From positions 1 to 38,788 of the forward strand of contig JAIQEZ010000032.1 in the NCBI GenBank assembly GCA_020073545.1: 38,788 bases of DNA, read 5' to 3'. The notes under the pieces were generated by a model, which was not told the DNA's origin, made no database searches, and was given only the letters and a program-made list of their open reading frames with translations. Positions 1,137 through 35,379 of this stretch are shown in pieces. Source of the stretch: Terriglobia bacterium. Lineage in GTDB: Bacteria; Acidobacteriota; Terriglobia; UBA7540. Position 1 is the first letter of the stretch. Each line of letters begins with the position of its first letter. The position numbers were made by a program, and so were the translations under genes.

Positions 1137-1890
1137 GGGAGTTGCCGAAAATCCAGTATTGAGGTAATTGGGAGAGTGCGTCTGTGAAGAGGCATCATGC
1201 CAAGGGGGAATGTCAAGCGGACCATGTAACGGCCCTTACCCCTGTCCGGTCTCCTCAGTCGCTCTCAATCGGCAGTCGCCGCGCCATTGCCCGCCACCAG
1301 TCCGTTGCGCTTGAGGTTGAACGAGTTCACTTTGTCGAGCCGTTCCCGCAACACTCCCGCGACGAATCTCAATTGCCGCTTGCTCAGGCCTGGGCAGCCC
1401 ACTCCCGCACCCGGACTTGCTCATTTCTGACAACAGCGATGTAACGCTTAATGGGCCTCATGTTCTCGTCCCCATGTTGCTGGCGGACCCGAACGCGGCG
1501 CGCATAGGTAGCTGAAGACAAGGAATCCGACGCTGCGCTCGGTCGGGCAGTCTGCTTTGCGAGGGAGCATGGCTGGGGGAAAGCATAGCTTGGGCCAGGG
1601 ATCCCAGCCCCTGCCGAGTTCCTTGGGGGCTGCTCGAAAAATTCCCGAAGCTCTCGCAAATTCTCGAAAGGGAGTTGCCGGAATCGAGTATTGAAGTAAC
1701 TGATCCAGTGTATCTCGGGCGGGGCATCGTGCCCGGGGACGCTGTGCGAAGTCGGAGAATGCGCTTATCCCCCTCCGATCTCCTCAGTGCCCCTCAGTCG
1801 TCAGCCGCCGCCCCATTGCCTGGCATCAGCCCGTTGGACTTGAGGTTGAACGAATTTACCTTATCCAGTCTGTCCCGCAACGCCGTCTTC
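1137..1890. repeat. diverged tandem duplication of an integrase 3' end (copies 1137-1365 and 1671-1890)
   Basis: Two stretches about 530 bases apart align along their length, roughly 65-75% identical by eye. Each begins with GGGAGTTGCCG, continues through a shared (C/G)AGTATTGA(A/G)GTAA, and ends inside the last 35 integrase codons. The right copy is the true 3' end and downstream flank of the intact integrase; the left copy belongs to a decayed one. The remainder of 818-1793 holds no convincing gene. It contains an A/G/T homopolymer-rich patch at 911-945 and a further GGGAGTTGC at 982-990. Confidence 0.7.
1265..1510 (-). pseudogene. decayed tyrosine recombinase, C-terminal relic
   Basis: Reading leftwards, one frame gives GDENMRPIKRYIAVVRNE, a degraded form of the recombinase box around the catalytic tyrosine (compare GHKDMETTARYCAP in the intact neighbour). 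The Tyr is kept but the box His has become Asp. That frame stops at about 1384, and after a frameshift the sequence resumes as RERLDKVNSFNLKRNGL and ends at a TGA at 1265-1267. This tail matches the last 32 residues of the intact integrase at 1794-3014 closely (RDRLDKVNSFNLKSNGL). The N-terminal 300 or so residues are gone. It is a dead second integrase, probably left by an earlier or tandem element at the same tRNA site. Confidence 0.75.
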
Positions 1891-3014
1891 TTCATCGGAG
1901 CGCAATAGCGTGCGGTCGTTTCCATGTCCTTGTGCCCCATCATCGCCTGGATGCTAGGCAGGTCCACGCCCTCTCTCAACAGTTCCACACAGTATGTCGC
2001 CCTCCACTTATGCAGCCACGCCTCCTCACGCGGGATACCCGCACGGCGGGCTATCCGCTTGCACATCTCCAGCATCTGGTAGATGGGCTTGCCGGTGCGC
2101 GTGTGGAACACCAGTGGGCATTTCGAGTTCTCCTTCAGCCTCAGCAGGCTTGCCGCCAGCTCCTGGGAGATGGGGATGTCCCGCACATGCCACTTCTTGG
2201 GCTTCCAGCCGTATTCCGGGCGCTCGTCAATGTGGATGAACCGCTCCTTGAGATTAATGTCGCTCCATCGGAGCGTCTGTACCTCCCCAAGGCGCAATCC
2301 GCAGGAGTAGAGGACTGAAAACAGGACGAACTGGACCGTGTCGCACTTGGAAAAGAATGCGGCGACCTGCTCGTCCGTGTATGCTTCCGGGTCGCGGCGT
2401 CCGTACTTCGGAGCATCGCCCTTCATAAAGACATTGTGGTTGTACTCAGAGAGGAACTGCCGCAGGTGCAGGAACTTGTTCCACCGGGTGCGGTCGCTGT
2501 TCTCCTGCTCTTTCAGGTACGTGTTGATAAAGCGCAGAGCATCAACGCGCTGGATGTCTTCGACGTATTTGGGCTTTGTCCTCTTTCCATAGGAGTGTAA
2601 GAATTCGTCAAGAACCAGCTTCTTGACCCCGTAGCTGTCACCAGAGAATTTCTCTTTGATGATTTCCAGCCACTCGTCAATTGCCCCGCTGAGGTTCGTC
2701 CTCTGGGCAGGCACCCTGTTCTCGTTTCCGAGCACGCTACCGCCAGCCGCGATGTACGCGAGCCCGGTGCGCTTTTTCTCCAGCGCTCTTATTGCGCCGG
2801 ACGGGTTGTTGCCGACGTTCTCCCACATCTTGTGACCGCCGCTCCGATAGCTGAGGTAGTAATCAGCCTCGGTCTGGAGTTCCTCGGTCCCGTCAGGTCG
2901 CAACAGGACGTGGGGCTTAAGGTTTTTGTTCGCCCCGAAAGCAGCACGACAGTAGCGCCACCCGATTCCGGGGAGGTCTGCGTATAGGTAAAGCTGAACC
3001 GAACGATTGGCCAT
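1794..3014 (-). CDS. tyrosine-type site-specific recombinase (integrase)
   Basis: This 406-residue protein cuts and rejoins DNA at attachment sites to integrate or excise a mobile element. Catalytic motifs are visible in order: Arg in CGLRLGEVQTL (about 240), Lys in PKKWHVRDIP, the HxxR box LHKWRATY, His in MMGHKDMETT, and the nucleophilic Tyr in TTARYCAP. The N-terminal 115-210 region is the usual SAM-like core-binding domain. The gene starts 136 bases from the 3' end of tRNA-Leu and points away from it, the standard arrangement for a tRNA-targeted island whose body lies to the left. A decayed second integrase tail sits just downstream. The family is sure; the element's identity is unknown because its far end is outside the window. 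Confidence 0.93.
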   Translation of the reverse strand: MANRSVQLYLYADLPGIGWRYCRAAFGANKNLKPHVLLRPDGTEELQTEADYYLSYRSGGHKMWENVGNNPSGAIRALEKKRTGLAYIAAGGSVLGNENRVPAQRTNLSGAIDEWLEIIKEKFSGDSYGVKKLVLDEFLHSYGKRTKPKYVEDIQRVDALRFINTYLKEQENSDRTRWNKFLHLRQFLSEYNHNVFMKGDAPKYGRRDPEAYTDEQVAAFFSKCDTVQFVLFSVLYSCGLRLGEVQTLRWSDINLKERFIHIDERPEYGWKPKKWHVRDIPISQELAASLLRLKENSKCPLVFHTRTGKPIYQMLEMCKRIARRAGIPREEAWLHKWRATYCVELLREGVDLPSIQAMMGHKDMETTARYCAPMKKTALRDRLDKVNSFNLKSNGLMPGNGAAADD

Positions 3015-26366: not shown

Positions 26367-26672
26367 ATGCGGATAAGTCTGTCCGGGCGATTCGGGATCG
26401 TTCTCATCCTGTTCGCAGCAGCGGCAGACGTCGTTCTGCGGCTAATCTGGTTATTTGACAACCCTCAATTCGGCGAATGGAGACCATCTGACGCTTACCT
26501 GCCGTTCGTCCTGCTCTTGGGACTAATTCTGTTTCTGCAATCCATCAGCATCGCAGTTCAAGGAAAACGGGCAGCGAGCCTGGCGAAGTTTCCGCTGACC
26601 ACAGTGGGACCGCAACCCCCAGAGTTGCGGCGGGAGGCAGGCCGAGTCGGATCGCGAGAGCACTACCCGTAG
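26367..26672 (+). CDS. small two-helix membrane protein, hypothetical
   Basis: 101 residues. Two hydrophobic helices are visible, FGIVLILFAAAADVVLRLIWLF (about 9-30) and YLPFVLLLGLILFLQSISIAV (about 44-65), then a charged tail. AGAAGG lies just before the ATG, at a short spacing. It is 58 bases before the ExbD-TonB fusion gene on the same strand, so the two may be co-expressed. I recognise no family, and coding status is likely but not sure. Confidence 0.5.
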   Translation: MRISLSGRFGIVLILFAAAADVVLRLIWLFDNPQFGEWRPSDAYLPFVLLLGLILFLQSISIAVQGKRAASLAKFPLTTVGPQPPELRREAGRVGSREHYP

Positions 26673-26730: not shown

Positions 26731-28041
26731 TTGCACCGTAGCCTTCTCAAGTGGTTCGGGTACGCGTCCCTTCTGGCGGCAGTCATCCTGTACGGCGGCA
26801 TGCAACGCTGGATGGCGACCCGCATATTTGTTCCTCTCGACGTAGCCATCTCTCTCGTACATGACCACAACCGGACCGCCGAGTTCCGGACAAATCTTCG
26901 GGCCGTCCATTTGATTCACATGACTCTCCCCGATTCCGGCGAGCCAGGCTGCCGACTTTGGAACGGTCCCGCACCCCTGATCCGTTGGCAAGTGCTCAGG
27001 TCTGGACGCCCAGTGGCCGAAGGAGTTCACCACAAGCCGGAATGGTACAGTCGGGAGGCCCTCGGGAGGTTCGAGACCCCACAGGGTCTCTACAGCATTG
27101 ACCTCGATTTTCCGGCAAACTGCGCTATCGGCAAGTATGGGTATCCCAGGCTCAAGGTTGAAGTTGATCGGCACTCCATCGGGGTCTACAAAGTCGCGGA
27201 TTTACTCTTCTACACACTCGTCGCGGCGGGCATCGCCTTGATGCTTTGGCCCGCCATCGCGGAAATGGATGAGCTGAGGTTACAGGGCGAGATCCGCGCG
27301 ACCTACAGGGGCATGGCGCGCGCCGGCCGCACCCTCCAGCCGTTGATTGCGCTCACGCAGCCACTCTCGAGTCTCCGAACATTCTCGTACTTGGCCGTAA
27401 TGCTTCTAGCGACCGTGTGGTGGTTTTCTGTAATCTTGTCCCCGCTGACTCCCAACGGGTTGAAGGTCTACGTCCCGAAGCACGGAACCTACGCCCGGGC
27501 GGAGGATGAGCTGTGGAACGAACCGTTGGTCTTGCGCATCGATGCCCAACGCCGTTTGTATTTGAACCGGCAACCCGTGCCGCGGGCCGACCTGGAGAAG
27601 CGTTTGCGAGGTGCCCTGAGCATTCGCGCCGATTGGACTGTCTTTTTGGAAGGGGACCCAAGCCTTCCGGTCGGCGATCTCATCGCGCTGGTGGACGAAA
27701 TTGAAGGGGCATTTAAAGCCAAGGTGGTTTTGGTGACGCCAAGCATGGCGAAAGAAAACCCCACCCTGTCTGCGCCGCCTTTCTGCGTAGCCGTTCCGCT
27801 TCAGGCAGGGACGTTGGAGCTCCCGGGGCGGTGGCGGCGCACACGCTACGGCGAAGGGTATTACCATGTTTCGTTTACCCTCAACGAGCGAGGAGAGGCA
27901 TCGAACGCCAAGTTAGGGGGGAGTTCGGGAATTCCCGGCATCGACGAGTGGATCGTTCGCTCGGTCGAGAAGTGGAAATACCAACCCATGCCCAACTGCG
28001 GCAAACAAGAAGTAGCGACGTATATCTGGATCGATCATTGA
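26731..28041 (+). CDS. membrane protein fusing an ExbD-like domain with a TonB C-terminal domain
   Basis: 436 residues from a TTG with no clear ribosome-binding site. Order of parts: helix 1 (about 7-24); an outside beta-rich domain (about 45-150, unknown); helix 2 (154-173); helix 3 (217-236) running into SPLTPNGLKVYVP. Helix 3 plus that motif is the pattern of ExbD, whose periplasmic domain follows (LVLRIDAQRRLYLNRQPV, to about 337). Residues 375-436 are a TonB C-terminal domain, ending WIVRSVEKWKYQPMPNC.. ATYIWIDH. ExbD needs an Asp in its helix for proton flow; the equivalent part here (RTFSYLAVMLLATVWW) has none. No exbB lies nearby. Normally ExbB, ExbD and TonB are separate proteins that energise outer-membrane transport. 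Function here is open. Confidence 0.75.
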   Translation: MHRSLLKWFGYASLLAAVILYGGMQRWMATRIFVPLDVAISLVHDHNRTAEFRTNLRAVHLIHMTLPDSGEPGCRLWNGPAPLIRWQVLRSGRPVAEGVHHKPEWYSREALGRFETPQGLYSIDLDFPANCAIGKYGYPRLKVEVDRHSIGVYKVADLLFYTLVAAGIALMLWPAIAEMDELRLQGEIRATYRGMARAGRTLQPLIALTQPLSSLRTFSYLAVMLLATVWWFSVILSPLTPNGLKVYVPKHGTYARAEDELWNEPLVLRIDAQRRLYLNRQPVPRADLEKRLRGALSIRADWTVFLEGDPSLPVGDLIALVDEIEGAFKAKVVLVTPSMAKENPTLSAPPFCVAVPLQAGTLELPGRWRRTRYGEGYYHVSFTLNERGEASNAKLGGSSGIPGIDEWIVRSVEKWKYQPMPNCGKQEVATYIWIDH

Positions 28042-34056: not shown

Positions 34057-35379
34057 ATGTTAAAGAGCATCCGGCTCAAGAACTTCAAGCTCCATGAGGA
34101 CACTCAAATCGAGGCCGCGCCGATTACTGTCTTCATCGGGCCGAATAACAGTGGGAAGTCGAGCATCTTTCAGACGCTGCTGCTGATTCGACAAGCGGCC
34201 TCCCGAAACGACCGGTTTCTGTGCCAGCCCTCTGCCGCCCACCTGCCGGCGGCATCGGAACCATATCAGTACCCGGCACAAGTGAGTGTTGATGTTGGTG
34301 GATTTGCCGAGATTGCTCGCAAAAGCGGGAAAGATATTCAGATTGACTTCTCGGGGATCGTTCAGGCGAGAAAGCCGCTTCACGAGGTGGAGCACGCGTC
34401 CGTGAGCGCCCAGTTGCGAGTCAGAGAAAACCAACTCGTGTCCCACAGCGGCGCGGTCGCTTTTCTGGACAGTCAGGCTAAGTGGGAATTCACTCAGGGC
34501 AATCCGGCCCAGCCAAACTTGGTCCCCCTGCGCTTGGGCCCGCAACTCACCTATCAACTTCAAATAACCGACACATTCAGATTGACTCAGCCCGGGGGCT
34601 ATTTGACCGACACTCGTGGACTGTCGCATGAGACCGTGCTGATGTACAACGAGTTTTCCCAATGGATTGGCGCTAGTCCCAATGACCTGTTAGCTTCCAT
34701 TCATCCCGTCTATGCCCTTCGGGGTTTTGAAGAGTGGGGATACCCGATTACTGACTTTCCCCCGGCCAACCTTGAATTGATGACGCTTCACGACCGGGCG
34801 CTTGCGTTGCCAAATGCACTGGCGTCAGACCGACGGCTCAAAGAGAGGTTGTCCAATCGGCTCGAAAAGCTTCTCCACATCTCCATCGATTTTGAAACAG
34901 TTCCTGGGAAAAGGCTCAAGATTTGGGCCAAGGGTTCCGGCAATAACGCCGGCGAAACTCTGTTCGTGAATGAGGGTACAGGCGCAAATCAGGTCCCGTT
35001 CATACTTGTCCCCGTCCTTCTTACCCCACCCAATGAGACGGTCCTGCTCTCGGAACCCGAGGCCCACCTGCACCCCAAGGGGCAGTGCGAGCTCACGCGC
35101 ATGTTACTCACCGTAGCCAAAGAAGAAGACATTCAGTTCTTTATCGAGACCCACAGCGAACACGTTTTGCACGTGATCCTCAATGCCATCGGCAAGCGAG
35201 AGTGGGAACCAAACCAAGTTGCCATTTATTCCTTCGAGAATGTCAACGGAACTGCAAGAGTCACGCCGCTCGAAGTGGACGAGCGAGGTGGCGTTAAGGG
35301 TGGGCTCCCTGGATTTTTTGACCAGAGCCTTGATGAATTGACCGAGTACCTCGAGACCCTCAAGAAGACGCCCGCGTGA
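34057..35379 (+). CDS. AAA ATPase, DUF3696 / OLD-like family
   Basis: 440 residues. The ATPase is of the SMC/ABC-like type: Walker A GPNNSGKSS (Gly28-Ser36) after the strand PITVFI; Walker B and its Glu-His region VLLSEPEAHLHP (329-340); and the switch His in ETHSEHVLH (about 364-371). The C-terminus (DERGGVKGGLPGFFDQSLDEL) resembles DUF3696. Such ATPases, like OLD and Gabija GajA, occur mainly in defence modules and are paired with or fused to a nuclease; this one has no fused TOPRIM domain. It overlaps the next gene, a PIN-like nuclease, by four bases (GTGA), so they are translationally coupled. The codon use looks less GC-biased than that of the neighbouring genes, in line with transfer. 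Confidence 0.87.
   Translation: MLKSIRLKNFKLHEDTQIEAAPITVFIGPNNSGKSSIFQTLLLIRQAASRNDRFLCQPSAAHLPAASEPYQYPAQVSVDVGGFAEIARKSGKDIQIDFSGIVQARKPLHEVEHASVSAQLRVRENQLVSHSGAVAFLDSQAKWEFTQGNPAQPNLVPLRLGPQLTYQLQITDTFRLTQPGGYLTDTRGLSHETVLMYNEFSQWIGASPNDLLASIHPVYALRGFEEWGYPITDFPPANLELMTLHDRALALPNALASDRRLKERLSNRLEKLLHISIDFETVPGKRLKIWAKGSGNNAGETLFVNEGTGANQVPFILVPVLLTPPNETVLLSEPEAHLHPKGQCELTRMLLTVAKEEDIQFFIETHSEHVLHVILNAIGKREWEPNQVAIYSFENVNGTARVTPLEVDERGGVKGGLPGFFDQSLDELTEYLETLKKTPA

Follow-up and report, generated by a model that had tools for sequence, protein, structure and literature searches.

The protein encoded at positions 26,731 to 28,041 of the window (the whole stretch of 38,788 nucleotides analysed here, contig JAIQEZ010000032.1 of a Terriglobia bacterium) belongs to a family with a conserved architecture, in which two transmembrane (TM) helices flanking a beta domain are followed by a third TM helix and an ExbD periplasmic domain (TM-beta-TM-TM-ExbD), and from which the proton-binding Asp of ExbD is absent. 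The TonB tail carried by the window copy is peculiar to it, whereas the loss of the Asp is a trait of the whole family and not of that copy alone. No description of such an Asp-less ExbD-domain family was found in the literature searched. The window protein contains true homologues of the periplasmic domains of both ExbD and TonB, yet by membership it is neither ExbD nor TonB. ExbD normally combines proton coupling with the capture of TonB, and a family in which the periplasmic fold and the dimer strand persist without the proton-binding Asp is a way to separate these two functions. We tentatively suggest, at a little under an even chance of being right, that these proteins are motor-uncoupled 'pseudo-ExbD' adaptors, clamps or regulators in the inner membrane, acting on a Ton motor encoded elsewhere in the genome.

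The main ORF of 436 amino acids was confirmed on the forward strand. Its chain runs from TM1 through a beta-sandwich with two cysteines, TM2, a loop that is probably cytoplasmic because it is arginine-rich, and TM3 to the ExbD fold and the TonB fold. A chance ORF was ruled out by curated-profile matches, structure and a pN below pS. The features are as follows:

26367..26672, forward strand: upstream ORF of 101 amino acids, which probably supplies the gene's N-terminal TM pair and lies out of frame with the main ORF (blastp to the N-terminus of the G004 homologue, E 6e-10)
26731..28041, forward strand: main ORF, 436 amino acids, with coding-type GC by codon position; the TTG start is doubtful and has no clear Shine-Dalgarno (SD) sequence
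26752..27267, forward strand: module of TM1, periplasmic beta-sandwich (about residues 35–146, Cys74/Cys131) and TM2 (profile match; AF2 module model, pLDDT 75)
27373..27450, forward strand: TM3, about residues 215–240, the equivalent of the ExbD transmembrane helix, without Asp or Glu (alignments to ExbD)
27451..27480, forward strand: equivalent of the ExbD dimerization strand (NIBS), around GLKVYVP (joint alignment with canonical ExbD)
27517..27741, forward strand: ExbD periplasmic fold, residues 263–337 (Pfam, hhalign, AF2 superposition)
27778..28038, forward strand: TonB C-terminal domain, residues 350–436 (Pfam, TIGR01352, AF2 superposition)

The original prediction had placed ExbD-like and TonB C-terminal domains in one protein, together with an extra helix pair and an outside domain. 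Both parts of this picture were borne out, as the Pfam matches lie above cut-off, the AF2 superpositions agree, and a TM/beta-sandwich/TM module precedes the ExbD part. It missed two things: that the TonB tail belongs to this copy and not to the conserved family architecture, and that the gene has a further N-terminal TM pair, encoded upstream in another frame. The AF2 model of the window protein was built from a five-row alignment and is of modest confidence (mean pLDDT 62.6).

The ExbD assignment is carried by profile, profile–profile and structural comparisons. Residues 232–336 match Pfam ExbD (E 8.2e-7, 29.6 bits against a cut-off of 25.4), and an alignment of 15 family members compared with canonical acidobacterial ExbD by hhalign gave a probability of 99.2% (E 8.9e-20). 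A structural match of the 265–337 region to ExbD, on which the original prediction depended, is strong, with model residues 263–337 superposing on the Escherichia coli ExbD periplasmic domain (8vgc) at Z 10.9 and an rmsd of 2.1 Å over 75 residues. TM3 and the helix-to-periplasm junction (TPxxGL) also align with ExbD. The NIBS, which comprises ExbD residues 44–49 (PMC10771500), is kept: in a joint MAFFT alignment with canonical ExbD, the Gly44 equivalent is present in 15/15 members and the Val47 equivalent is Val in 13/15, while the equivalent of Leu132 is Leu in eight of the 15. The family thus shares with ExbD/TolR (PF02472) the periplasmic domain fold, the dimerization strand and the helix-to-periplasm junction. 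ExbD and TolR, however, are small proteins with a single N-terminal helix, whereas in the family the domain is preceded by TM-beta-TM-TM, which adds two helices and a beta-sandwich, and both the membrane Asp and an adjacent exbB are lacking.

The missing Asp, already remarked for the window protein alone, extends to every member. The fetched loci hold 92 ORFs that match ExbD. Of these, 15 are family members, another 75 are canonical ExbDs whose sequence spans the helix, and the remaining two are truncated short of it. All 75 canonical proteins (75/75) have the Asp, and none of the 15 family members (0/15) has D or E anywhere in TM3, which rules out an Asp relocated to another position of the helix. 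The Asp column corresponds in the window protein to Ala222 (phmmer to PDB 7ajq), Met224 (profile–profile) or Ser219 (joint MAFFT); this uncertainty of a few residues is immaterial because the whole helix is without acidic residues.

The tail of the window protein matches Pfam TonB_C at residues 375–428 (E 6.5e-6, 27 bits against a cut-off of 24.6) and also TIGR01352, and model residues 350–436 superpose on the TonB C-terminal domain 1u07 with Z 7.7 and an rmsd of 2.4 Å over 83 residues. It runs in frame from the ExbD domain, and the coding GC pattern extends through it. Fold and sequence signature (SSG..iD..., WKYQP) are shared with the TonB C-terminal domain (PF03544). In contrast to TonB, the window protein has neither an SHLS-type N-terminal helix nor a long Pro-rich linker spanning the periplasm, and its TonB fold begins about 18 residues past the ExbD domain; because the two domains are linked by so few residues, reach to the outer membrane looks difficult. 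The SHLS motif (S...H......L...S) was absent from all family proteins, the window copy being represented in this search by its main ORF. Among 40 relatives, TonB_C matches to the window tail were weak and confined to one genome. The domain order asked about in other Acidobacteriota is shared in part: TM-beta-TM-TM-ExbD is present in 13 intact fusions, and the TonB tail was found only in the window copy.

The N-terminal periplasmic beta-sandwich had no Pfam sequence match. Its predicted fold resembles p24 GOLD, bacterial PPC and CBM35-type sandwiches, but the structural matches are weak (Z about 6.5–8.3, the best being 8.3), and no single known fold family stands out in the fold search, where many unrelated sandwiches tie. 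The beta domain alone also forms short, secreted-looking proteins in the same class (L057, L060, L076-L080).

A profile of the TM-beta-TM module, which includes the window sequence as one of its rows, found matches in 21 of 399 genomes of class Terriglobia. At the ORF level, 13 of these are fusions with the ExbD-like domain, two (G332 and G249) are split, their halves being separate ORFs, and the remaining six have a beta domain but no ExbD; the 15 homologues formed by the intact fusions and the split pairs span several families of the class. Members differ in length and composition. The sister protein in the same genus (G004) has 470 amino acids and 43% identity over residues 2–352, a second homologue in that genus (G003) has 606 amino acids with two tandem TM-beta-TM modules, and the homologue in another family of the class (G059) has 386. 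In a phylum-wide draw of limited search sensitivity, 8/396 genomes matched, seven of them within the class, and the sole match outside it is a 227-amino acid frame, too short for the fused form. Searching GTDB contigs with a four-row alignment gave three loci, in Acidobacteriota metagenome-assembled genomes, one of them labelled Terriglobia; the window protein alone as query found no relative there, and viral contigs held no family match. When 84 ExbD domains were placed in a tree, the family fell to one side of a branch with support 93/90 and had long branches, so that its members may, but need not, share a single origin. Best pairwise matches suggest that the family domain may derive from the second acidobacterial ExbD paralogue, a question on which the tree, with few columns and long branches, gives no resolution.

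The original prediction also noted that no exbB is next door. This was confirmed by a Pfam MotA_ExbB search, which found none on the 38.8-kb window contig; the nearest matches lie on other contigs of the same genome, where C33 carries a tonB-exbB-exbD-exbD cluster, C232 an exbB-exbD pair and C6 a weak match. No exbB or tolQ stands beside any family member, and canonical ExbB and ExbD are present in every genome examined. Neighbours on the window contig include recA, a penicillin-binding transpeptidase-domain protein, a PEMT-type methyltransferase and an M64 peptidase, and no TonB-dependent receptor was seen among the larger ORFs scanned. An AAA_15/AAA_21-type ATPase, possibly OLD-like, lies at 34057–35379, and a recombinase of the phage integrase family at 1794–3014 on the reverse strand, near the contig start. 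No conserved operon was found across the family: the genes are orphans with differing neighbours, and the link to the Ton system consequently rests on homology and one adjacency. The latter is found in G059, where, on the same strand, a canonical exbD with its Asp (L035:8705-9178) precedes the Asp-less fusion (L035:7325-8485) by 219 bp, with no exbB nearby. In members from two bacterial families (genomes G235 and G332), homologous genes of metallo-beta-lactamase fold (L064:8826-9764 and L072:2335-3336) come immediately after the family gene, two instances being too few to build on.

The 5' end of the window gene calls for separate treatment. The upstream ORF has an SD-like AGAAGG before its ATG, both conserved with G004, and homology (LAFVPS) continues between it and the TTG at 26731. 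DNA alignment with G004 places a net 2-nt frame change near 26656, followed by a stop at 26670, at which no classical slippery site for programmed frameshifting was seen by eye. From these alignments the gene probably starts at 26367 rather than at 26731. The TM pair of the upstream ORF is apparently what remains of a first module after loss of the beta domain, the tandem module being intact in G003. Since this ORF is homologous to the N-terminus of G004, the window copy either carries a frameshift, which a mutation or an error in the sequence could have introduced, or is a genuinely split gene, and given the frame change it may or may not be produced as a single chain. Decay or mis-assembly of the gene, the frameshift having cut off the first TM pair and the TonB tail being an accidental fusion, would account for the interrupted frame, for a TTG without an obvious SD and for a tail that other members lack. 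We nevertheless regard it as very unlikely, given that 436 codons stay open with coding GC through the tail, that the TonB_C match exceeds curated cut-offs, and that G332 and G249 likewise read as two ORFs. In addition, pN against G004 is below pS in both parts (0.39 against 0.70 in the 101-amino acid ORF and 0.36 against 0.63 in the main ORF; uncorrected, with synonymous sites near saturation).

Two further explanations concern the family as a whole. One is a hetero-dimeric stator, in which an Asp-less ExbD-like chain and a canonical ExbD would sit together inside the ExbB pentamer with a single proton site. The G059 adjacency, the ExbD-like alignment of TM3 and its junction, and the canonical partners in all genomes examined are what it would lead one to expect. 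Such an arrangement is nonetheless unlikely: no other intact member has an exbD neighbour, TM3 comes after a beta domain and two further helices, and in the rest of its sequence this helix does not resemble that of ExbD. Somewhat less improbable, but still doubtful, is a sensor or structural envelope protein with no Ton link, for which the ExbD fold, and in the window protein the TonB fold too, would be no more than a unit for dimerization or peptidoglycan binding. Orphan genes without conserved neighbours fit such a protein, as do beta-sandwich modules that exist singly as secreted or two-TM proteins, and TonB_C domains that are diverse and numerous (13 in the genome itself, 32–37 in two relatives). 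On that view, however, it would be a coincidence that the ExbD fold has been preserved entire, dimer strand included, and that the chain has also gained a TonB_C domain.

The adaptor, clamp or regulator reading takes its cue from canonical ExbD. ExbD periplasmic domains capture the D-box of TonB (PMC10907165) and bind peptidoglycan (PMC10771500), the disordered TonB segment being captured by periplasmic dimers and peptidoglycan bound transiently (PMC10907165, PMC10771500, PMC11658791). A regulator, clamp or sensor is probable, rather than a motor part, because the proton-binding Asp is lacking, and a family protein would itself form no proton channel with ExbB. Its ExbD domain would pair with itself or with canonical ExbD and/or, by analogy with known ExbD periplasmic domains, grip the disordered TonB segment or peptidoglycan glycan, and the beta-sandwich would sense a ligand or bind a partner, thereby governing the clamp. 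In the window copy, a TonB C-terminal domain would have been added onto such a protein. Because the family ExbD domains have long branches, they may also have lost TonB or peptidoglycan binding. The original prediction of a sensor, or of a structural variant of the TonB machine, thus remains the preferred interpretation, though as an inference.

Non-standard proteins made from Ton/Tol parts have a precedent in the vWA force transducers, which have a TolR/ExbD-like pore helix (PMC12204202); those keep the Asp and adjoin tolQ genes, whereas the present family keeps the periplasmic ExbD fold, lacks the Asp and has no exbB or tolQ near it. A more specific proposal, which we hold less firmly than the adaptor reading, is that ExbD periplasmic domains were here freed from the proton motor and set on a sensory membrane module, where they might brake, gate or anchor TonB, a TonB-gripping domain and a TonB C-terminal domain being joined in one chain in the window copy. 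The family also hints that inactive copies of motor subunits may serve to regulate the Ton motor in Acidobacteriota, whose genomes are rich in proteins with TonB domains.

Other arrangements of ExbD domains were also seen. A 301-amino acid protein of G011 (L040:2579-3484) has two tandem ExbD domains, with similar two-domain frames in G258 (C51) and G175 (C10), and in G235 (C1:86716-87378) Pfam matches to ExbB and ExbD fall in one reading frame, each in a 330-amino acid open frame, a possible ExbB-ExbD fusion.
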